The position numbers were made by a program, and so were the translations under genes. Shown piece by piece: positions 3,655-39,777 of a DNA stretch of 43,890 nt. The stretch lies in the IMG/VR virus record IMGVR_UViG_3300037961_005709, positions 1 through 43,890 of that record; one strand, 5' to 3'. This DNA comes from a virus. Position 1 is the first letter of the stretch. Every line of letters starts with the position of its first letter. The notes beneath the pieces were generated by a model. It searched no databases. It was not told the DNA's origin and saw nothing but the letters and a program-made list of their open reading frames with translations.

Positions 3655-3765
3655 ATTATAGCAGAAAACCGCCTACTAGAAGAAGTAGACGGTTCTCTAA
3701 GTGGCTTATACTGTGATCTTCAACCCAGACAAAGGTAGTCTACAGAGATTCTCTTAACTTGTCAA
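3655..3765 (-). promoter_or_regulatory. Multi-promoter region upstream of the helicase
   Basis: Three leftward promoter candidates are packed into about 110 nt. (1) TTGACA (3765-3760), 17-nt spacer, TAGACT (3742-3737). (2) TTGTCT (3732-3727), 16-nt spacer, TATAAG (3710-3705). (3) A perfect extended -10, TGCTATAAT (3663-3655), with no good -35. The first overlaps the end of the 2OG oxygenase gene. Together they mark the border between the tail-fibre-side genes and the early-type block and should serve the helicase. Confidence 0.6.
3667..3694 (-). terminator. Hairpin, possible terminator or attenuator
   Basis: AACCGTCTACT, loop TCTTCT, AGTAGGCGGTT on the minus strand form an 11-bp stem with one mismatch, followed by a short TTTT tract. 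It lies after the 2OG oxygenase gene and just before the extended -10 at 3655. The short U tract makes termination only moderately likely. Since two promoter candidates lie upstream of it, it could instead be an attenuator or a 5' leader structure for the helicase. Confidence 0.5.
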
Positions 3766-4398
3766 GCGTCCGTTCTTGTTTGTTGCTCGACATCCAAAGA
3801 AAGATGTGATAGCATATCTACCATTACCTTCAAAGTAATCGGAATCTTTGATAGTAACTTTTCTGACAGCATGTTCTACCCAACCAGGAAAAATTACCAT
3901 GGTATTGTTATCACATGAAATTTTAAAGTCATATTCAGGAAAAATTAAATCTCCACCAGAAAATTTCTTAGGTTCTCTATAGAAATAAGAAAATGCTAAA
4001 AATTGAAAGTCTCTGTCAGTATGTGGATCATAATATTCACCATCATGATAGTACCTGACTTTAGTACAATCCCAGTTTGATTTTGGTGCTATCTTGCAGC
4101 ATGGATGAATTTCTGCAAAATTATTCAGTACTCCAGAATCAAATAATTTTCTATTTACGGTCAGAATATTTGATACAGATCTGTGCCCCTCATATACATC
4201 ATCTAGTATGAGTGCCTTTGCATTTGTATTGTCAATAACACCACCGTAATCTTTTGCTTCCACTAACTTTCCCGGTTTGGTAAGAAAGTTTAGTTCTTCC
4301 CATACAAGTTCCAGTTCTAATTCATTATAAAAATTTTTAATAATCATCAAGGGAAAAGGTTCTTGATGAACTGTTGCCTCTAGAATTTCACTTTTCAT
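3754..4398 (-). CDS. 2OG-Fe(II) oxygenase (prolyl-hydroxylase-like) A
   Basis: 214 aa from ATG 4398 (MKSEILEATV), which overlaps the previous gene's stop by 11 nt; a longer in-frame start would extend far into that gene. The double-stranded beta-helix signature is complete: HTD (His126, Asp128), distal His176 in WVEHAV and 2-oxoglutarate-binding Arg194 in GRYAIT. The enzyme should be soluble and iron-dependent, oxidising an unknown substrate. Phage homologues are common in T4-like cyanophages, but substrates are not settled to my knowledge. It lies in tandem with a second, sequence-divergent 2OG oxygenase at the end of the fibre/adhesin gene run. Confidence 0.85.
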   Translation of the reverse strand: MKSEILEATVHQEPFPLMIIKNFYNELELELVWEELNFLTKPGKLVEAKDYGGVIDNTNAKALILDDVYEGHRSVSNILTVNRKLFDSGVLNNFAEIHPCCKIAPKSNWDCTKVRYYHDGEYYDPHTDRDFQFLAFSYFYREPKKFSGGDLIFPEYDFKISCDNNTMVIFPGWVEHAVRKVTIKDSDYFEGNGRYAITSFFGCRATNKNGRLTS

Positions 4399-4981
4399 TT
4401 TTAACAGTATCATTTGGAGTTGGTTGAATCCATCCCCATGTAGTAGCAAGATATTTTGTACCACCTAAGGGAGGATTGCCTCTATGAGTATGTGTATATT
4501 GGCATGGAAAGATAATTACATCTCCTGCCGATGCTTTTTCTCGTTTATTGATATATAAAAATTCTGTTTCTCCACCATCAAAGTCATCATTAAGATAGGT
4601 TTGAACAACAAATGTTCTACCACAACTTAAATAGTCACCATTCTCGTAGTGCCAGGAATGAAATCCCGCACCAGCTTCAAGTTTCTTTATTTTCATATCA
4701 TAAATTATAAACTTTCTTTGTCCCAAAACAGTATATTTTTCTAGATACTGATCCACACAAGTTTTTAACTTGGGAAACATCAATTTATTGACTCTAGTTG
4801 CTGATGCAAAGTCAACTTCAAAGTCAACATTTACATTGATTGCTTTTTGATCCTGTAAGTGTGGATTTTGTTCTGTCCTAAACAACCTCTGTGTTTCTTC
4901 AAAAAATTCTATTTCTTGAATGATGTCTCTACACTCTTGTCGAGTAAAAGTCTCTTTATAGCGACAAATAAAATCGTCCAT
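4388..4981 (-). CDS. 2OG-Fe(II) oxygenase (prolyl-4-hydroxylase-like) B
   Basis: 197 aa. Iron ligands are visible as WHYE (His111, Glu113, an H-x-E variant of H-x-D) and a distal histidine in YTHTHRGN (His166). Lys176 in GTKYLATTW replaces the usual Arg for the 2-oxoglutarate carboxylate. GGETEF (137-142) is the family's typical turn. Likely a soluble dioxygenase that hydroxylates a protein or small molecule; the substrate is unknown. The stop overlaps the next 2OG gene, so the two are probably translationally coupled. A 29-nt gap separates it from the glycine-rich protein upstream, without a recognised promoter. Confidence 0.85.
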   Translation of the reverse strand: MDDFICRYKETFTRQECRDIIQEIEFFEETQRLFRTEQNPHLQDQKAINVNVDFEVDFASATRVNKLMFPKLKTCVDQYLEKYTVLGQRKFIIYDMKIKKLEAGAGFHSWHYENGDYLSCGRTFVVQTYLNDDFDGGETEFLYINKREKASAGDVIIFPCQYTHTHRGNPPLGGTKYLATTWGWIQPTPNDTVKNEK

Positions 4982-31385: not shown

Positions 31386-31958
31386 TCAGAATGCTCCAAA
31401 TGCTTTTTGTGCTATACCAAGAGATGACATACCAAATGCTGCGTCTGCAATCAAAGTACCAGAAAATGACTTCAAGAAACTACTTTGTACCAATGAATCT
31501 GCAAGTGTTCCTTTTTTAGCCTTAATATCTAACTCTTGAGCTATAATTTTTATTTCTTTAGTGCTATTACCATCAGCATTACCTATTCTAATTCTAGGTG
31601 CTTGTAAAACAATTTCTTTACTTGCATCTAAAACTATTTGTTTGGCATTCATTTTGATGTGACCTTTTGCCGCATCAAACGAAACATCACCTCTGTGAGC
31701 TAAAAACTCAAATGCACATAATCCAGATTGACCTGCAAGACTTTTATGTCCCGCAGCTTCAAAAAAACAAACTCCTTCACTTTTTAATTTTGTCAATCCA
31801 CTTTCAGTATGTGATTGAATAAATTTTAAACCTGAATCAGTAACAGATTTTATACAGAATGCCTCTCTACCAGACATTCCCATTTCTTGATTGCCAGTTT
31901 CAACAATCAACTTTGGTCCAAAAATTTCTGTAATTCTGGTTTCTTGTGTGACTGCCAT
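31386..31958 (-). CDS. Beta-helical spike-like protein (190 aa), gp5 C-domain-like
   Basis: From ATG 31958 (MAVTQETRITEIFGPKLIVE), placed 2 nt after the preceding stop. The middle is a run of short alternating strands (LKFIQSHTESGLTKLKSEGV; IKMNAKQIVLDASKEIVLQA; KEIKIIAQELDIKAKKGTLA), the VgrG/gp5-needle pattern. The C-terminus is helical and hydrophobic (SFLKSFSGTLIADAAFGM). Family knowledge: T4 gp5 has an OB domain, a lysozyme and a triple-stranded beta-helix needle. Here the OB part is a separate 237-aa gene two genes upstream, and this protein could supply the needle. It could also be another beta-helical tail accessory. Confidence 0.55.
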   Translation of the reverse strand: MAVTQETRITEIFGPKLIVETGNQEMGMSGREAFCIKSVTDSGLKFIQSHTESGLTKLKSEGVCFFEAAGHKSLAGQSGLCAFEFLAHRGDVSFDAAKGHIKMNAKQIVLDASKEIVLQAPRIRIGNADGNSTKEIKIIAQELDIKAKKGTLADSLVQSSFLKSFSGTLIADAAFGMSSLGIAQKAFGAF

Positions 31959-31960
31959 AA

Positions 31961-33433
31961 TCAACTAATACAATCAATAACTTGAATAATTTCAGTCTGA
32001 GGAGGTACAATATTCATAATAGGTCTCAATATTGCTCCAAATCCAGTTGTACTATCAATATTTAGATCAGGCAGTCCATTGTATGCAAATCCTGGTTGAG
32101 GAACAGCATCAATAATTCTACCATCTCTAATTGTCAGATCAACTCCTTCAATTTCACCATCAAAGTAATCCTCTCCGGCATCTTCAATTATAATTTTTTC
32201 AACATAAAGTGGCAGTTCTTCAATATCTGCAGGATAATTTTCACCCTCACTGATCATTGCGACTGCAATAATTTGTCCATAAGTGGGTGATTTTGGTTTT
32301 TTATCTATAATTGCACGACCATATGCACCATATCCTTTATTACAACTGTCTTCAAAAGTTACTACAGGAGCACTTCTATATCCTTGTCCAGGATTAGTGA
32401 TATCGACACCAACAATTTTTCCAACTTTTGCAACATCACCGACAGTATCAGTCAAGTCTAGATTATCTACAATCCCACCAAGAACTACATTCCCTGCGCC
32501 ACCAAATCCATCACCACCGAAGAACTTCATTGTTGGTAGACCACACTTAGTCACATTTCCAAAATCACATGGTCCGAGAGTAGATGCTTCTTCAAGAGGG
32601 GATCCAAATACTTCCCATTTTCCATATTTTTTCTCAAAGTCTGTTGCAAGATTTTTAGCTCCTTGAGAAACTGCCGTACCACTTGTAATCCCTTTGAATT
32701 TTTTACCAATCTCAGATTCAGCAAGATCTTTCAGTGGTCCAACATCAACTTTATACTTACTTGTTGTAGGACATATTTTTTCATCACCACAAGAAAATAA
32801 TCCTTCAACTTTCTTTAGAACATCGATACCAGTTGTCAAGAAACTTTTTGGATTGAAACTAAAAAATGCACCTAAAATTGATTGAATCGGTCCAAGTAAA
32901 GGACCAGTTATAGAGTCTGTAATATTTACAAGATCATTGAAAAATCCACCGACAATTTGATCTGCTACACAAGAAACTCCATTAACAACATTCTTTACTG
33001 CTGCGGTCAAAAGATCTTCTATGGCATCTTTAGCTGCATTTATAATTTTTGATGCTCCACAGAATAATCCATCAAACAAAGTTTTAACTAATGGTGGTAG
33101 AGGAGTTTCAATAAGTTTTATGATTGGTATAGGTGTGTTTAAAGAAATTAAAAATCTTTCTAGTGCGGTTATTGCTTGAGGTATCAACTCCGTCAATTTA
33201 TCAGTTAATGATCCTAGACTTTTATTGACGAATCCGGTTATGGTATCTCCAACAAGATCTACCGTTTCTCTCATTTCATTTTGAAATCCATCGACATCAT
33301 TTTGAAAGTTAGAAATAGTATCAAAGAAGTTATTGACATACGCATCCATTCTAGCAAAGGTGGAATCTTTACATGGATCTGCTTGTATAACTACCTGTCC
33401 ACTGGTAGAAGATTCCGGTTTATTACAACTCAT
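31961..33433 (-). CDS. Tail structural protein of the hub region (490 aa)
   Basis: Residues 25-230 are helical and amphipathic (VNKSLGSLTDKLTELIPQAI; ITGPLLGPIQSILGAFFSF), with several cysteines (GLFCGASK, VSCVAD, LFSCGDEKICP). Residues about 350-490 are beta-rich with repeats of the type VGVDITNPGQGYRSAPVVTF, MISEGENYPAD and IIIEDAGEDYFDGE, common in large T4-like structural proteins (compare IKILNGGSGFSQVDPPDVII in the 1051-aa protein). Start by GGAGG 11 nt before the ATG and a late motif (AATAAATA) 23 nt upstream. It lies between the OB-fold and spike-like genes; the exact role is unknown. Confidence 0.65.
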   Translation of the reverse strand: MSCNKPESSTSGQVVIQADPCKDSTFARMDAYVNNFFDTISNFQNDVDGFQNEMRETVDLVGDTITGFVNKSLGSLTDKLTELIPQAITALERFLISLNTPIPIIKLIETPLPPLVKTLFDGLFCGASKIINAAKDAIEDLLTAAVKNVVNGVSCVADQIVGGFFNDLVNITDSITGPLLGPIQSILGAFFSFNPKSFLTTGIDVLKKVEGLFSCGDEKICPTTSKYKVDVGPLKDLAESEIGKKFKGITSGTAVSQGAKNLATDFEKKYGKWEVFGSPLEEASTLGPCDFGNVTKCGLPTMKFFGGDGFGGAGNVVLGGIVDNLDLTDTVGDVAKVGKIVGVDITNPGQGYRSAPVVTFEDSCNKGYGAYGRAIIDKKPKSPTYGQIIAVAMISEGENYPADIEELPLYVEKIIIEDAGEDYFDGEIEGVDLTIRDGRIIDAVPQPGFAYNGLPDLNIDSTTGFGAILRPIMNIVPPQTEIIQVIDCIS

Positions 33434-33455
33434 GGTTTATTTTCCTCCGTATTGA

Positions 33456-33463
33456 TATTTATT
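33456..33463 (-). promoter_or_regulatory. Late-type promoter motif AATAAATA
   Basis: Minus-strand AATAAATA over the stop of the 237-aa gene, 23 nt before the 490-aa gene start. A GGAGG Shine-Dalgarno sequence lies between motif and start. Confidence 0.6.
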
Positions 33464-34175
33464 AACTTAATGTGAAAGTTACACCATCAACTTCTTCACC
33501 GGCAAGAAGTTTTTCTGCCTTAATTGCTTCTTTTATCTCCTCCTGCTCTTTTTCATTCAAACCATTACCAGGTGGTTTTGCAACTTCGGATGTTTTTGCT
33601 TCTGCTTCAGGATCAATACCAGCTTCCCTCAATAATTCTTTTTTATCTGTATCTGTAGGTTCTGGTTTTCTTGCACTTTTATCACTTCCAGATCCTCCAG
33701 GAAGTGCTCTTGGAACACATGGAGCAGAACTAGTCTCATTTGTTTCTGCTCTACCCAAAAGTCCCAGTGCTTTATTTTTTCCCTCAAAACCAGTCTTGGA
33801 TTCAAATCTACCTTTACCATAACGAGTTCCTGAAGTTCTACCCAGACAACCGGTTACAACTGGTTGTTGTCTTGCAGAACCATCCAAAAATTCTCCAGTT
33901 ACTACATCACCCTGAGTTAATCTTATTGTTCTTTGCCTATTTGTAGCACCAGTTCCATCAGTAACACCTAGCTGAACCAATGCATATGTAATTTCATCAT
34001 CGGCAAGTTCACCCTCTTCAGATGAGTGAAATCCCATTATAGCAACTTTTACTCTAAGTCCAAAACCACCAGTTCCCTCAATTTGAGTTCTTTGAGCACT
34101 GTTAGACAAAACAATACCCAACCACTTATCGTTGCCTACTCCATAAAATTTTATACTAGAAGATGGTTTTTCCAT
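33462..34175 (-). CDS. 5: Baseplate hub OB-fold protein, gp5-like without lysozyme domain (237 aa)
   Basis: Residues 8-115 match the N-terminal OB-fold domain of T4 gp5: NDKWLGIVLSNSAQRTQIEG, VKVAIMGFHS, then LTQGDVVTGEFLDGSARQQP with VVTGCLGRT. After residue 120 the protein is Gly, Ser, Lys and Glu rich and disordered (SSAPCVPRALPGGSGSDKSA), ending in a helix (LNEKEQEEIKEAIKAEKLL). T4 gp5 (575 aa) continues with a lysozyme and a beta-helix; both are absent. The start overlaps the gp27-like stop (TAATG), matching the gp27-gp5 partnership in the T4 hub. The lytic function, if any, must lie elsewhere, possibly in the L,D-transpeptidase-like protein two genes upstream. Confidence 0.75.
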   Translation of the reverse strand: MEKPSSSIKFYGVGNDKWLGIVLSNSAQRTQIEGTGGFGLRVKVAIMGFHSSEEGELADDEITYALVQLGVTDGTGATNRQRTIRLTQGDVVTGEFLDGSARQQPVVTGCLGRTSGTRYGKGRFESKTGFEGKNKALGLLGRAETNETSSAPCVPRALPGGSGSDKSARKPEPTDTDKKELLREAGIDPEAEAKTSEVAKPPGNGLNEKEQEEIKEAIKAEKLLAGEEVDGVTFTLS

Positions 34176-35512
34176 TATTGTGATTTAGTAAAGTTTAGTC
34201 CGTAAGAATCACGAATTAAGTTCATCGAGGTGGATGCTTTATTTGGCTCAAAATGATGACGAAGTGCCTGGATTATATAGTTTCCACTTTGAACCTGATC
34301 TGGTCCCTGTTCTTTATCTTCAGATGTGGATTCTACTTCCAACTTGATGACACTACCCGCCTCAAGAGTAGTGTTGCATGGAATTGTTGCAGTATTGATT
34401 TGTGAGAACAAAATATTATATCTTGTGCTACCCGCAGCATAATAAAGTTCTGGACTATTATTTACATCTATATCAAGTCCTTCTGCACCAACATCAAAAA
34501 TTGCGGTTTGAACCCTATGATATTTTTTGCCCTTGTCAAAATCTTTCTGTAGCAACTCGGGAGGTGATTGTTTCTTACCCAATGATGAAAACTTAGGATC
34601 TTCTGTAAGACCTTTGTTCGCAACTGATATATCAATCTCAGTGAATCCATTAGTTTGTGGATTAAAAAATATATTCTTTGATGCATATACACCAGAACGA
34701 ATTTGTGACAAAAGACTTTGATCTTTTACCATGTTCAAAGATGAAACTTTATAATCATTAGAGTTATCTTTTAGTTCTGCCGTTGAGATTGGTTGTCCCG
34801 TAAACCTATAAGTTTTTTCAAATGGATCTTGATTGATTAGTTTATCAGCAGAAATGAATTTAAATCCACTTCTAGTCTCATAGCAGAAATAACCAGGATT
34901 CGTAATACTTGACGGAACTGTGCGAATACACAACATAGCAATTAAGTCAAGAGGTCTTTTTCTCATACCAAGAAAAGAGTATGAATTACTAGACTCATCA
35001 ATATCAATTTCAGAGTCTTTAAATAAAAGATCTGTTTTAAGTAATCGTTTTACGGAATCACTAATCTTACCATTAAATCTTCTAGAGATCCTTGTAGTCT
35101 CATTTAACCAGGCAGTTCTTGTTGAGAATTTTATTGCTAGTGTCTCAGAGTTTGAAGAATCTACGACACTTACATCAGTGACATACAATTTTTTATAGTC
35201 ATCATTTTCAAAAGAAAAGTCTATTGCTTCTCCAATCTCAGAATTTATTTTAACTAAGAGAGTACAACCTGCACGAATAGGTAATGATGTATGAAGAGCA
35301 CCCAATCTATTTTGAGTATCATCTTTAGATTCTGCAGAACCACCAGTGCTGGAGATTATTGCTACTCCAGTAATAATTGGAGATAGAATGTTTTCAAAAA
35401 AATCAAAACTTATGATTCTCATCTCAGGAGTTTTGAACACATCAACGCGATTTGCTCCGTCAGGTGATATAATAGTAAATTTTTCGAATACTGACCCTTG
35501 TGCTGATGCCAT
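34175..35512 (-). CDS. Baseplate hub protein, gp27-like (445 aa)
   Basis: Begins MASAQGSVFEKFTIISPDGA; IISFDFFENILSPIITGVAI (about 33-52) and IRAGCTLLVKINSEIGEAID are typical of tube-like domains of the gp27/gpD hub family. Later YKKLYVTDVSVVDSSNSETL and SSNSYSFLGMRKRPLDLIAM show the helical insert between the two tube-like domains. The C-terminus ends EVESTSEDKEQGPDQVQSGN YIIQALRHHFEP, the hub pattern of a final strand pair with a histidine-rich turn. Length is close to T4 gp27 (391 aa). Position directly before the gp5-like gene, with overlapping codons, supports the assignment. Confidence 0.75.
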   Translation of the reverse strand: MASAQGSVFEKFTIISPDGANRVDVFKTPEMRIISFDFFENILSPIITGVAIISSTGGSAESKDDTQNRLGALHTSLPIRAGCTLLVKINSEIGEAIDFSFENDDYKKLYVTDVSVVDSSNSETLAIKFSTRTAWLNETTRISRRFNGKISDSVKRLLKTDLLFKDSEIDIDESSNSYSFLGMRKRPLDLIAMLCIRTVPSSITNPGYFCYETRSGFKFISADKLINQDPFEKTYRFTGQPISTAELKDNSNDYKVSSLNMVKDQSLLSQIRSGVYASKNIFFNPQTNGFTEIDISVANKGLTEDPKFSSLGKKQSPPELLQKDFDKGKKYHRVQTAIFDVGAEGLDIDVNNSPELYYAAGSTRYNILFSQINTATIPCNTTLEAGSVIKLEVESTSEDKEQGPDQVQSGNYIIQALRHHFEPNKASTSMNLIRDSYGLNFTKSQ

Positions 35513-37081
35513 TTACGGTATATTGTTAAGATTACTAGAATTTGATCCGGAAGATCCTCCCGATGCAGAACTATTTAATCCACCACCAGTCGGAACTTTA
35601 ATTATCTTTTCAACTTCGACTGGCATAATAATGACTTGATCAGAACCTCCATCATCTGTGGGGACAGAAATATTATCTGGAGAAACTCTTGGTTTTACAG
35701 ATGAAATTTTAGCACCCTTTCCAATAGCAACATTGACTGAAGTTGGTTTAACTGCTTCATAAGCTGCAATAAACTTCTCTTCAGCAGGAGTTCCGGAAGA
35801 TCCACCAAGTTCAACTCCAATGCATCCTGCAGTTCCATTACTGCCAATATCACTGTGCACCAATAATTGACTTCTGTTGCCGATTGAACCACTTAGATTG
35901 TTGATGTAAGCAGACCAAGTTCCTACCCCATCAATATATCCATGTCTTTGGAAGTCCAATAAAGGATAACGACCATCTGGTAATGGATTCAAAGCTCCAG
36001 AAATATTTGCCCTGTCACCTTGAGAAGTATTTCCAGTTCTGAGCACTCCACTGATTGCTTCCCATGATCCAATTTTTTTACCAGTGGCATCATTCAGAAC
36101 CAATTTACCAGTAGCACCATCACCATGTCCAATAAAATCAAGACTCCCTCCTGGTTGTATTGGTCCACTTGAAATTTCTACATTATCACCACTTGGTGAA
36201 GGTTTTCTAGTTAGGAAACCACCAGTGCCAGGAGCAGATTTTTTAAACATGCCCTGGAGATTTTTGATATTTTTTCTGAAAATCTCTATGGATCTTTTAG
36301 TTTTTCCTAAAGACTTTGCAAACATCGAATATGATTTTTTAGGAAAACTTCCTGAAGTTGTTTTTATATTGGATTTCTTTGAATCGGAAGTTTTACTTTT
36401 TGGAGGAACGACTCCACCTCTATTTCTCATCAACGGTTGTTGTCGCACTGGAGCAGGTGGATTAAAGTCAGATCCACCAACAGTATCTCCAACTCTTATG
36501 ACACTTCCATCAGACATTACGTTTGGATCATCGGCATTTCTAGTTGTAACTTCATCAACTCCATTATCCAAATCCAACTCAGAAATACCAACATTCAAAT
36601 CTTTATCTAAAGTCTTTAGTTCACTTTCTATAGGATTCAAATCAACTTTTGATTTTGCATAAGTCGGAAATAATTGATCAAAAATAAATCCAAAACCAGT
36701 TCCAATAACACCAAATATTTTACCAGCAATGTCTAAAGCAGGTTTTACCTGATCAATGAAGTTACTTACATTTTCTATTATTTTTGGTAACTGATTTACA
36801 AGAAATCCCAACAATAAAGTTCCAAAGAAATTCATCGCTGTATCAAATATGGGCATAACTTTTGATGTTATCTTCTGTGCCCCTGCTTTCAGAAAACTTG
36901 TAACTGGTTTAATTTTTTCGGTTGCCTTTTCTTTTTCCTCTCTTTTTGCTAATTTTGCCTGCTTCCTTAAAAATTTATTTTTATTGATCTTTGCTTTTTG
37001 AAGATCTTTTCTAGACTTCAAAATGAAACTGTCTAATTCAGTTACACTTATTTTTACTTTGTTTAGTTGAATATTGTCCAT
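35513..37081 (-). CDS. Tape-measure-region protein with L,D-transpeptidase/Tlde1-like domain (522 aa)
   Basis: Residues 1-60 are a basic coiled coil (KKSRKDLQKAKIN-type, KREEKEKATEKIK). Residues 78-140 are hydrophobic helices (MNFFGTLLLGFLVNQLPKII; KIFGVIGTGFGFIFDQL) resembling those of the 319-aa protein. Residues 140-310 are a disordered linker. Residues about 312-455 look like an L,D-transpeptidase or DUF2778/Tlde1-type fold: LVLNDATGKKIGSWEAISGV, NPLPDGRYPL, then QLLVHSDIGSNGTAGCIGVE with His409 and Cys420 as likely catalytic pair. Such enzymes cut or rearrange peptidoglycan peptides. Inference: a tail-tube protein that delivers a murein-acting domain during DNA entry. The C-terminus is Ser/Gly rich. 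Confidence 0.7.
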   Translation of the reverse strand: MDNIQLNKVKISVTELDSFILKSRKDLQKAKINKNKFLRKQAKLAKREEKEKATEKIKPVTSFLKAGAQKITSKVMPIFDTAMNFFGTLLLGFLVNQLPKIIENVSNFIDQVKPALDIAGKIFGVIGTGFGFIFDQLFPTYAKSKVDLNPIESELKTLDKDLNVGISELDLDNGVDEVTTRNADDPNVMSDGSVIRVGDTVGGSDFNPPAPVRQQPLMRNRGGVVPPKSKTSDSKKSNIKTTSGSFPKKSYSMFAKSLGKTKRSIEIFRKNIKNLQGMFKKSAPGTGGFLTRKPSPSGDNVEISSGPIQPGGSLDFIGHGDGATGKLVLNDATGKKIGSWEAISGVLRTGNTSQGDRANISGALNPLPDGRYPLLDFQRHGYIDGVGTWSAYINNLSGSIGNRSQLLVHSDIGSNGTAGCIGVELGGSSGTPAEEKFIAAYEAVKPTSVNVAIGKGAKISSVKPRVSPDNISVPTDDGGSDQVIIMPVEVEKIIKVPTGGGLNSSASGGSSGSNSSNLNNIP

Positions 37082-37084
37082 TTA

Positions 37085-37933
37085 TCAGGCTCCAAATATT
37101 CCTAATTGTTCCTTCATAAACCCAACAAAGAAATTGGAAGGATCTTCGGCACCTAATACTGGAATAGAATCACCAGCAGGTTTTGGTTGATCTCCTCCAA
37201 GAGATGTCATCGTTGTTTGTTTTTGTGGTGGCATCATAGTAACACCACTTCCCTTACGTTTGGCAGGAGGTTTTAACTTTGAAGCACCACCACCTCCACC
37301 ACCAGACGATGGTGTTATTTTTGCAGCAGAAGCACCACCTCCACCTCCTCCAGATGACATTGTAGGAGGTTTTTTGTTTGTCATCACTTCTGACAAACTA
37401 CTTAGAACTTTTGCAAATTCAATATTTGCTTTTTCAAATTCTAAATTATTTTTTATTTGAGATTCGAAAGTTTTTTGAATTACATTATACATTTCACCAC
37501 TAGTAGAATTCATAGCTGCTAAAGTACTAATACCCCAAAGATTAGTTGCATCTCTACTAGTAACAAATTCACCTGGTGTCAACATTGCAGAAACACTATC
37601 TTTATTTGGTCCTAATTCATTTCCTGCAACTTTACCGCCAGTATTCATTTCAGCAGATTCTTTATTATTCTCTTCATTTTTAGCACCAGTTATAAAGTCA
37701 TAAATTTTACCACCAACAATATCTCCAAATATACCACCAGCAACTGTGCCAAAAAATGGAATAGGCACCAATGATCCTAGTGCACTACCTAACATGGCAC
37801 CTACTGATTTTGCTGCTGCTCTTCCAATAGGTTCTCCGAGTGCTAATGATACTGCAAAATCAATTAATCCACCAAAAATAGGAACTCTTTTTAAAAGAGG
37901 TCTTAAGAATTTAGTAATTCCTTTTAAACCCAA
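37085..37933 (-). CDS. Tape-measure-like protein with Gly-zipper helices (282 aa)
   Basis: Residues 15-83 are hydrophobic with repeated small residues (GRAAAKSVGAMLGSALGSLV; FFGTVAGGIFGDIVGGKIYD), able to span or insert in a membrane. Residues 98-130 hold NTGGKVAGN and AMLTPGEFVTSRDAT; LTPGEFV (118-124) is a frequent motif of tail tape-measure proteins. A helix follows (FESQIKNNLEFEKANIEFAK), then two GGGGGGA-type linkers and a conserved-looking C-terminus NFFVGFMKEQLGIFGA. It overlaps the 319-aa gene by 10 nt. The role is probably inside the tail tube or at the host membrane. Confidence 0.65.
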   Translation of the reverse strand: MGLKGITKFLRPLLKRVPIFGGLIDFAVSLALGEPIGRAAAKSVGAMLGSALGSLVPIPFFGTVAGGIFGDIVGGKIYDFITGAKNEENNKESAEMNTGGKVAGNELGPNKDSVSAMLTPGEFVTSRDATNLWGISTLAAMNSTSGEMYNVIQKTFESQIKNNLEFEKANIEFAKVLSSLSEVMTNKKPPTMSSGGGGGGASAAKITPSSGGGGGGASKLKPPAKRKGSGVTMMPPQKQTTMTSLGGDQPKPAGDSIPVLGAEDPSNFFVGFMKEQLGIFGA

Positions 37934-38883
37934 CTTTGATACAACTCTTGATCCTGCTTTAGAATATCCTCAACCCTAGCAACTGATTTTGCTACAATAT
38001 TATTATTTCTTACACCACCTTTAAATCTATTTTTAGCAGCATCTCCACCAAATCTTCTTTCAAATCTCTTTCTTGCTCCCTTAGTAGATTGTTGATTTCT
38101 TATTTCTCTTCCTGGTCTTACTGCTCTTCCTCCTCCACCACCACGACCACCACGACCACCGGTAACAAATCTACCGATTGCTCTTACTGCTCTAAAAAGA
38201 GTTACAAGTTTTCTCACCACACCAGCTATTAAAACACCACCAGCAATACCCACAACCCATTTCCAATTTTGAGCAATGCCATCAAATATTGCTTTTATAC
38301 GTTCAATGTTTTCTGGTTTCAGTGCTTGATTAATTATAAATCCACCGACAAGTGCTCCAAAAAAATCTAGTATTTTGTCAAATACATTCTTAATTGGCGC
38401 TCCAATTTTGCCGACAATACTGCCAATTGCACCACCAACTTTCTTCAATGATTCAACATCTTTTTCTTTTTGTTGTTTTTTCTTTAAATCTGCTGCCTTC
38501 TGTGCATCCTTTAGATCCCTTTTCTCTTTATTAATACGAGAAGAATAATCTAATTCTAATTGCTCTTTTATACTGATAAGGGAATCATTTATCTGTATTA
38601 AAGTATTTTTTCCAGTTTCTGGTGCTAGAGATGAAATTGTACCTTCTTTTTTGGCGGTTCCTTTTGCCTTAAGAATATTTGTTATCTTTGTAATTTTTTG
38701 TTGGTTGAGGGCAACCTTAGAACCTAGTTCACTAAATTGTTTTTTACTTATTTTATTTGCAGATATTCTTGCTATCTTACCTTCTAACTTATCTACTTTG
38801 AATTCTAAATTACCAATGCGATTATCTGCACTGTCAGCACGTAGTTCTAAGTCCGATACCCTGGGTTCTAAATTATCAGCCAT
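37924..38883 (-). CDS. Tape-measure-like coiled-coil membrane-active protein (319 aa)
   Basis: Residues 5-75 show heptads (VSDLELRADSADNRIGNLEF; VALNQQKITKITNILKA), a coiled coil. Residues 110-150 are a long charged helix. Residues 150-225 hold hydrophobic helices (DFFGALVGGFIINQALKP; WKWVVGIAGGVLIAGVVRKL). A Gly/Arg-rich segment (TGGRGGRGGGGGRAVRPGRE) and a basic tail follow. The first half repeats the layout of the 522-aa protein, suggesting duplication. Located just after the gp26 and 58-aa genes, where tape-measure genes usually sit. T4 gp29 is a single 590-aa protein; here the role seems shared by three proteins. Confidence 0.6.
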   Translation of the reverse strand: MADNLEPRVSDLELRADSADNRIGNLEFKVDKLEGKIARISANKISKKQFSELGSKVALNQQKITKITNILKAKGTAKKEGTISSLAPETGKNTLIQINDSLISIKEQLELDYSSRINKEKRDLKDAQKAADLKKKQQKEKDVESLKKVGGAIGSIVGKIGAPIKNVFDKILDFFGALVGGFIINQALKPENIERIKAIFDGIAQNWKWVVGIAGGVLIAGVVRKLVTLFRAVRAIGRFVTGGRGGRGGGGGRAVRPGREIRNQQSTKGARKRFERRFGGDAAKNRFKGGVRNNNIVAKSVARVEDILKQDQELYQSWV

Positions 38884-39052
38884 TTTGTTGTTGTGCCTTT
38901 AGATTTTCCTCTTCAATATATTGTGAGAGTAGAGTCACATAAATTTCTCTCTCCCAAGGTATCATATTCTCTAGTTCTGTTAATGAATATTTATGATGTT
39001 GCATGAGGGCAAAGTTAGTTCTATAAAAATTCTCAAGACTCTCATGCGACAT
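38876..39052 (-). CDS. Tiny tail-assembly-chaperone-like protein (58 aa)
   Basis: Reads MSHESLENFYRTNFALMQHH then KYSLTELENMIPWEREIYVT and LLSQYIEEENLKAQQQNG. The ATG lies 2 nt after the gp26 stop and the gene overlaps the next start by 8 nt. The LTELENMIPWEREIYVTLL pattern resembles the small second chaperone found just before tape-measure genes (lambda T or P2 E-type), or T4 gp51 functionally. Both are inferences from pattern and position. Too short for the usual ORF cutoffs, but its tight coupling on both sides supports it. Confidence 0.7.
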   Translation of the reverse strand: MSHESLENFYRTNFALMQHHKYSLTELENMIPWEREIYVTLLSQYIEEENLKAQQQNG

Positions 39053-39054
39053 CG

Positions 39055-39777
39055 CTAGTTGAAAAAACTTGCTAATCCCTCAAGAACTACTTCACTCTCA
39101 ACTTCAGTATTTGGATTTTTGACTTTGATAGTGTGAGAAAGTTTTGGCATAGTCTCAAAAAACTTCTCAACTTCTTTGAACTGCTTGGTGTTCATCTGAT
39201 CGACAAAATCCTTGAGTTCTTTCTTTGTGCAGTCAGATGCTGACCAAGATTCTTCTTCATTGAAGACAGTATTGATGCATGAGGTAATCACACTCAAAGA
39301 TTTATCAACATCACTTGAATCTTCACCAACTTCAAAATTACTTTCAACAAATTGATTCAGTGAAGGATACTTCATCTGGAGTGAAAGATTATCATCCAAT
39401 TTAATAATATTTGAATGCTCAGGATCTTTTTTTACTTTAATTTCATCAATGAAGATTTCAGTGGCAACTTGTGTCTCTCCATCATCAGGACAAGTTACGT
39501 TGACTTCTACAGTTTCTCCAACTGATTTTGCTCTAACATTTAAGAATAGGTATTCAATATCAAAAGTGGAAAGGTCATTGACCTTAACACCTCTGCTCAT
39601 TACACAATCGGAAAGAACAGTTTTAATTGCATCGGAAATTTGTTTGGTATCTTCAGATTCCAATGCCATGATCAAAATTTTCTCTTCTCTTACCAAGAAA
39701 GGACGATACTTTATTTTTTTCCCAGTAGAAGGCAATTCCAACTCGTAAGTTGGAGTATTAATTTTTGGTAAAGGCAT
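39055..39777 (-). CDS. 26: Baseplate hub/tail assembly protein gp26-like (240 aa)
   Basis: The N-terminus LPKINTPTYELELPSTGKKI KYRPFLVREEKILIMALES is the signature of the T4 gp26/T4_baseplate family. Then VNVTCPDDGETQVATEIFID forms a beta pair with one cysteine. The helical C-terminal half (KELKDFVDQMNTKQFKEVEK FFETMPKLSHTIKVKNPN) is also typical. T4 gp26 is 208 aa. It is thought to act in hub assembly; similar proteins behave as tail-tube assembly chaperones. A late motif AATAAATA lies 29 nt upstream. The next gene starts 2 nt after its stop. Confidence 0.82.
   Translation of the reverse strand: MPLPKINTPTYELELPSTGKKIKYRPFLVREEKILIMALESEDTKQISDAIKTVLSDCVMSRGVKVNDLSTFDIEYLFLNVRAKSVGETVEVNVTCPDDGETQVATEIFIDEIKVKKDPEHSNIIKLDDNLSLQMKYPSLNQFVESNFEVGEDSSDVDKSLSVITSCINTVFNEEESWSASDCTKKELKDFVDQMNTKQFKEVEKFFETMPKLSHTIKVKNPNTEVESEVVLEGLASFFN

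Follow-up and report, generated by a model that had tools for sequence, protein, structure and literature searches.

A predicted L,D-transpeptidase-fold domain in the exchangeable lysin slot of the tail hub of T4-like cyanophages

The second of two genes between gp51 and gp27 in a T4-like cyanophage encodes a tail-hub protein, here called Y, whose C-terminal domain is predicted from its modelled structure to belong to the L,D-transpeptidase (LDT, YkuD) fold superfamily. We consider it likely that Y is a virion-borne cysteine L,D-peptidase, an interchangeable tail lysin that acts at entry in place of the gp5 lysozyme. What is new here is that such a putative lysin, whose LDT active site is divergent, is one of several that replace one another in a conserved slot of two genes.

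The tail-hub locus

The window (the whole stretch of DNA analysed, 43,890 nucleotides, IMG/VR record IMGVR_UViG_3300037961_005709) is part of the genome of a T4-like cyanophage, that is, a virus of marine cyanobacteria. Besides the gene for Y, its annotation includes tail fibres, baseplate genes, gp26, gp27, parts of gp5, and gp32. On the minus strand the genes run in the order gp26, a 58-residue ORF, X, Y, gp27, the N-terminal part of gp5 and the middle part of gp5 (coordinates, strand, feature and basis below).

39055-39777, minus: gp26-like baseplate hub protein (Pfam T4_baseplate, E 4e-74; phrog_150)
38876-39052, minus: 58-residue ORF in the position of gp51, the hub assembly catalyst (position as in annotated cyanophages)
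37085-38883, minus: gene X, tape-measure-like partner (weak tape-measure PHROG matches)
35513-37081, minus: Y, 522-residue tail-hub protein bearing the predicted LDT-fold domain (ORF; relatives L006-L018)
36680-36853, minus: hydrophobic stretch or stretches of the N-terminal part of Y, residues 77-134 (hydropathy peaks starting at 77 and 115-116)
35711-36181, minus: predicted LDT-fold catalytic domain of Y, residues about 301-457 (alignments; AF2 model; PDB matches)
35855-35857, minus: His409, predicted catalytic base (invariant in all homologues)
35822-35824, minus: Cys420, predicted nucleophile, in GTAGCIG (invariant in all homologues)
34175-35512, minus: gp27-like hub protein (phrog_350, E 6e-74; blastp to annotated tail proteins)
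33462-34175, minus: gp5 N-terminal part, no recognised lysozyme domain (phrog_1922 positions 12-201; no Pfam lysozyme)
31961-33433, minus: gp5 middle part, a separate ORF, no recognised lysozyme domain (phrog_1922 positions 202-652, E 4e-52)
31386-31964, minus: 192-residue protein with weak spike-like (DUF2345/DUF3540) similarity (sub-threshold Pfam matches)

The ORF encoding Y is genuine, with an ATG start and 522 residues. A sequence-only reading of this DNA had placed it correctly while omitting its strand, which is minus, the plus strand being full of stops there; the peptides quoted in that reading are all found in the protein, and its numbering of His409 and Cys420 is exact, codons 409-420 (window:35822-35857:-) reading HSDIGSNGTAGC. 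Gene X consists of two ORFs here (319 and 282 residues) and of a single ORF of about 600 residues in close relatives, owing to a 4-nucleotide deletion near 37953-37971 relative to the close relatives L006 and L007, which may reflect misassembly or a true lesion. The gp5 gene is apparently split over 31386-34175 (minus) into the N-terminal part, the middle part and possibly the 192-residue spike-like protein as its C-terminal part, a split also kept in close relatives. Elsewhere in the window, a 2OG-Fe(II) oxygenase-like gene lies beside the tail fibre genes (3754-4464, minus).

Domain structure and predicted fold

The N-terminal half of Y is tape-measure-like, with a coiled coil and hydrophobic stretches, and is followed by a flexible linker and then by the C-terminal domain. 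The stretch from residue 4 to residue 112 matches gene X at 38275-38598 (E 5e-11), a similarity that suggests that X and Y may be paralogues; such paralogy, if true, could explain the movement of enzyme domains between both genes.

An AlphaFold2 model of the domain, built from 23 window and viral-contig sequences, adopted an LDT fold (pLDDT 85.5, pTM 0.85). Plain Foldseek against the PDB gave weak matches, with three LDT chains ranked first (E 4e-3 to 2e-2), whereas VIA-align, run on Foldseek's top chains, set the LDT matches clearly apart. The best of these was the L,D-carboxypeptidase Pgp2 (Z 12.4, rmsd 2.9, 130 residues aligned), followed by Csd6 (Z 12.3), Tlde1a (Z 10.8, 120 aligned), Bd1075 (Z 10.1) and YkuD (1y7m, Z 9.8), with DpaA at 8.9 and mycobacterial and other LDTs at 8-9; all 50 PDB entries among the matches listed are LDT-fold enzymes. 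In comparisons with viral models, the same cyanophage proteins matched best, and after them a lysin from a Nodularia phage and a phage protein with the label Tlde1. As the domain profile matched no PDB sequence (hmmsearch), the link to the LDT fold rests on the predicted model.

The likeness to Tlde1 and YkuD proposed from sequence thus holds for the fold, with Tlde1a among the top PDB matches, and fails for the Pfam models of both families. Neither the window protein (at E 1) nor members of the homologue alignment (at E 10) matched PF03734, the model of classical YkuD/Ldt enzymes, and PF10908 (Tlde1/DUF2778) matched none of these and nothing in the window record even at E 1. No Pfam model claims the domain, and searches of the window protein against Pfam, PHROGs and NCBIfam returned nothing useful for it. 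The best Pfam match was a sub-threshold one to DUF5675 (PF18925; E 0.15, 12.3 bits against a curated cut-off of 26.7), for which hhalign gave probabilities of 86 (13 sequences) and 44 (33 sequences), compared to 0.2 for an unrelated control. The AF2 model of DUF5675 itself (pLDDT 95.8) matched Pgp2 (Z 11.1), Csd6 (Z 10.1) and Tlde1a (Z 8.9). A sequence bridge to YkuD was provided by the lysozyme gp079 of Nodularia phage kac68v162 (L173:1829-3082), in which Phage_lysozyme is joined to a C-terminal YkuD-like domain with GTAGCVG: since gp079 is matched both by the domain profile (E 6e-7) and by PF03734 (E 0.002, below cut-off), it connects the cyanophage domain family to YkuD.

A conserved but divergent active site

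By tblastn against phages, residues about 302-453 matched 12 phage records representing eight cyanophages (S-H34, S-N03, MA01, MA10, ME01, MC09, S-H38 and P-TIM68), and scans of viral contigs, which partly overlap, added 19 and then 40 loci. Among bacterial and archaeal genome contigs the search patterns used retrieved zero relatives of the domain, so no recent host donor is seen. The conservation anticipated for the Cys/His pair was borne out, with His409 and Cys420 present in 29 of 29 distinct homologues, whose identity falls to about 41%. All 29 stretches carry the consensus H[NS]DI-x3-GT-x-GC[IVL]G, in which the spacing H-x10-C and the segment G-T-x-G-C-[IVL]-G are invariant, and the domain is the best-conserved part of the protein: in the more distant homologues of the same architecture it retains 69-75% identity, compared to 35-36% at the N-terminus, 16-21% in the linker and 34-40% at the C-terminus. 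It is under purifying selection (dN/dS about 0.13-0.18).

The classical motif is HX(X14-17)(S/T)HGCh, with a His at Cys-2 (PMC9638812). The cyanophage domain departs from it in having 10 residues between His and Cys and Ala, Gln or Leu at Cys-2. The spacing, which had been read as that of YkuD and DUF2778 enzymes alike, is therefore short as in Tlde1a and shorter than in YkuD enzymes. Because the His of (S/T)HGC is replaced and the His-Cys spacing is reduced, the activity of the domain could be altered. Taken further, the short spacing and the loss of two residues typical of classical LDTs, the -2 His and the +2 Arg, might point to a catalytically dead fold that serves the hub as a structural module or by binding peptidoglycan. 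We regard this as very improbable, as His, Cys and the flanking Gly are invariant down to about 41% identity while the linkers diverge to 16-21%, and as DUF5675 proteins, which also lack the -2 His, keep the same His/Cys pair.

Transpeptidase-active LDTs are reported to have Arg at Cys+2, where Ala or Asn is found in the hydrolase DpaA (PMC8263019). As this residue is Gly, not Arg, in every cyanophage sequence, hydrolysis by the domain appears likelier than transpeptidation. A true transpeptidase, which would re-link stems to seal the hole, exchange D-amino acids or anchor a tail protein to the wall, would be in keeping with a fold common to LDTs and Tlde1a and with the ability of Tlde1a both to trim and to exchange (PMC9638812); its tail-anchoring variant would have a model in the LDTs that attach Lpp to the wall. 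The Gly at Cys+2 of every homologue, the L,D-carboxypeptidases as best structural matches and the uniformly degradative nature of the slot-mates nonetheless leave this explanation only a slim chance.

An exchangeable lysin slot in the tail hub

The two genes that separate gp51 from gp27 are where Kyanoviridae put exchangeable murein-cutting domains. In agreement with the placement in the tail block first suggested from the sequence, 37 of the 38 viral contigs fetched in the second scan have the domain gene next to gp26 and/or gp27, the remaining contig being truncated, and so do the five isolate genomes examined. The flanks (gp26, X, gp27 and gp5) are those of a tail locus, and not the adjacent immunity gene and secretion system of a Tlde1-type context. 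The domain is hosted by Y in the window lineage and by X, the gene right after gp51 or the gp51 position, in S-H34, S-N03, MA01, S-H38 and P-TIM68.

Pfam assignments across the two genes show a range of combinations. In S-H34, X carries the LDT domain (411-562) and GH19, and Y carries Phage_lysozyme; in S-B68, X has M15_3 (421-454) and GH19, again with Phage_lysozyme in Y; S-CREM2 has GH19 in X and Phage_lysozyme in Y. S-H38 combines a tail lysozyme and the LDT domain in X with M15_4 in Y, contig L019 has the LDT domain and a tail lysozyme, Syn1 and Sf-FP1 have a tail lysozyme in X and M23 in Y, S-RSM4 has M23, and S-H9-2 has M23 in Y. As other phages place lysozymes or peptidases in these same two genes, the LDT domain is one of several interchangeable lysins.

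Two details of these architectures deserve mention. The M15 domain of S-B68 and the LDT domain of S-H34 lie in nearly the same place before the shared GH19, a swap of peptidase folds. The label 'chitinase' given to the S-H34 and S-N03 proteins fits the separate GH19 further along the same protein, and we rejected it as a name for the domain.

The sequence-only reading had held that the gp5-like protein lost its lysozyme and that a tail-borne Cys enzyme could replace it. We recognised no lysozyme in gp5 of the window, but the same is true of every cyanophage gp5 scanned, which had a Gp5_OB domain or nothing and never a lysozyme (P-TIM68 being partial and three loci metagenomic), and the absence is thus not special to the window. 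As to replacement, the LDT domain does occupy the lysin slot, as one of several exchangeable occupants and not as a one-off substitute.

In the window lineage and P-TIM68, no murein enzyme other than the LDT domain was recognised in X and Y, and no glycosidase was recognised in the tail of the window. Searches of Pfam, PHROGs and PDB sequences revealed no hidden second enzyme in X of the window lineage, although one could still exist; if two activities are needed, as they may be in other phages, one is unaccounted for in this lineage. A bolder scenario, which we rate as rather unlikely, is that the LDT peptidase alone opens the wall in P-TIM68 and the window lineage, acting with no glycosidase, or else that it is a true transpeptidase resealing the wall or anchoring the tail after entry. 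Were it the sole wall-opener, a T4-like tail would enter by peptide-bond chemistry alone.

Presence of the slot proteins in virions

In CsCl-purified particles of S-CREM2, the annotated endolysins ORF208 and ORF209 were detected with 73 and 71 unique peptides, respectively (PMC10665884, Table 3). These proteins occupy the X and Y positions, between gp26/gp51 and gp27. The authors of that study suggest that they are packaged in the capsid (PMC10665884), but the position of their genes argues for the tail. Since neither ORF208 nor ORF209 has an LDT domain, the virion proteome speaks for the slot and not for the domain; by proxy, it also suggests that the LDT protein of the window lineage is present in the virion.

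These data also bear on the idea of an end-of-cycle endolysin or dual-use lysin that is encoded among tail genes by chance and lyses the cell from within. The depositors' labels for members of the slot ('endolysin' or 'chitinase') and the Nodularia phage lysozyme, which joins a muramidase to a related domain, would be in line with this idea. The abundance of the equivalent S-CREM2 proteins in purified virions and the constant location of the domain in the tail-hub block, fused to a tape-measure-like N-terminal half, speak against it, and we hold it to be improbable.

Proposed mechanism

We infer the enzymatic activity, bond specificity, timing and role in entry of the LDT domain as follows. 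Y is most likely located inside the tail tube or at its end, and would be released into the periplasm upon sheath contraction. There, with Cys420 as nucleophile and His409 as base, it would cleave the amide at the L-centre of the stem-peptide diamino acid, acting as an L,D-peptidase (a carboxypeptidase on free stems and/or an endopeptidase on cross-links). In cyanobacterial murein the diamino acid is meso-diaminopimelate. Cleavage would weaken the wall at that point to let the tube or the DNA through, and the LDT domain would do the job of the T4 gp5 lysozyme. The predicted specificity follows the analogy with Csd6, in which His160 helps Cys176 to attack the L,D bond (PMC4599014): the pair His409/Cys420 should likewise cut stem peptides at the L-centre of their diamino acid. 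For lysin motifs in tape-measure proteins, mycobacteriophage TM4 offers a precedent (PMC1796659).

Comparison with known systems

Csd6 and Pgp2 (PDB 4xzz, 6xj6/6xj7), the closest solved folds (Z 12.2-12.4, 129-130 residues aligned), share with the cyanophage domain the catalytic His and Cys and, by prediction, hydrolase chemistry. They differ in being cellular shape enzymes with 17-19% identity to the domain, in the accessory NTF2 domain of Pgp2 and in a longer His-Cys spacing, their motif being H(S/G/D)X14-19C (PMC4599014). Tlde1a (PDB 7uma), compared here on the basis of published text and PDB library matching, resembles the domain in its LDT fold (Z 10.8, 22% identity over 120 residues) and in its short His-Cys spacing (H121, C131), but is a secreted T6SS effector and keeps His129 at Cys-2.

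Akin to the LDT domain, T4 gp5 and the X/Y lysins of Kyanoviridae (GH19, Phage_lysozyme, Phage_lysozyme2, M15 and M23) have the same hub position and presumed wall-opening job; they are glycosidases or zinc peptidases, whereas the LDT domain is a predicted Cys enzyme of a different fold acting on peptide bonds. The tail-lysin kit of T4-like phages would now extend to an LDT-fold cysteine enzyme. In Kyanoviridae, which are abundant marine phages, two adjacent hub genes have taken over wall-cutting from gp5, and murein enzymes of unrelated folds are swapped within them; this exchange allows one to test which wall chemistry is limiting for entry into Synechococcus and Prochlorococcus.

YkuD is a rare lytic class of phages, with 10 entries in PhaLP compared to 1834 for GH24 (PMC8310338). 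Its members demonstrate that phages use the LDT fold too, but they pass the YkuD/Tlde1 models, whereas the cyanophage domain fails these models and is located in a T4-like tail hub.

DUF5675 has the same fold by AF2, and many of its members have H-x10-C with xGC[IL]; they differ from the cyanophage domain in being stand-alone proteins of about 140 residues. The shared predicted fold suggests a function for this phage family, to which Pfam assigns none. DUF5675 (L065, L074-L080 and L087-L166) is common in phages, its LDT fold is predicted with high confidence and its His and Cys are invariant; on this basis, the family may represent a large group of phage murein enzymes that has gone unrecognised. 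A second predicted LDT-fold protein next to a hub is encoded by the T4-like Pseudomonas phage pf16, in whose baseplate cluster a DUF5675 gene (L076, 138579-139010) directly follows gp5.
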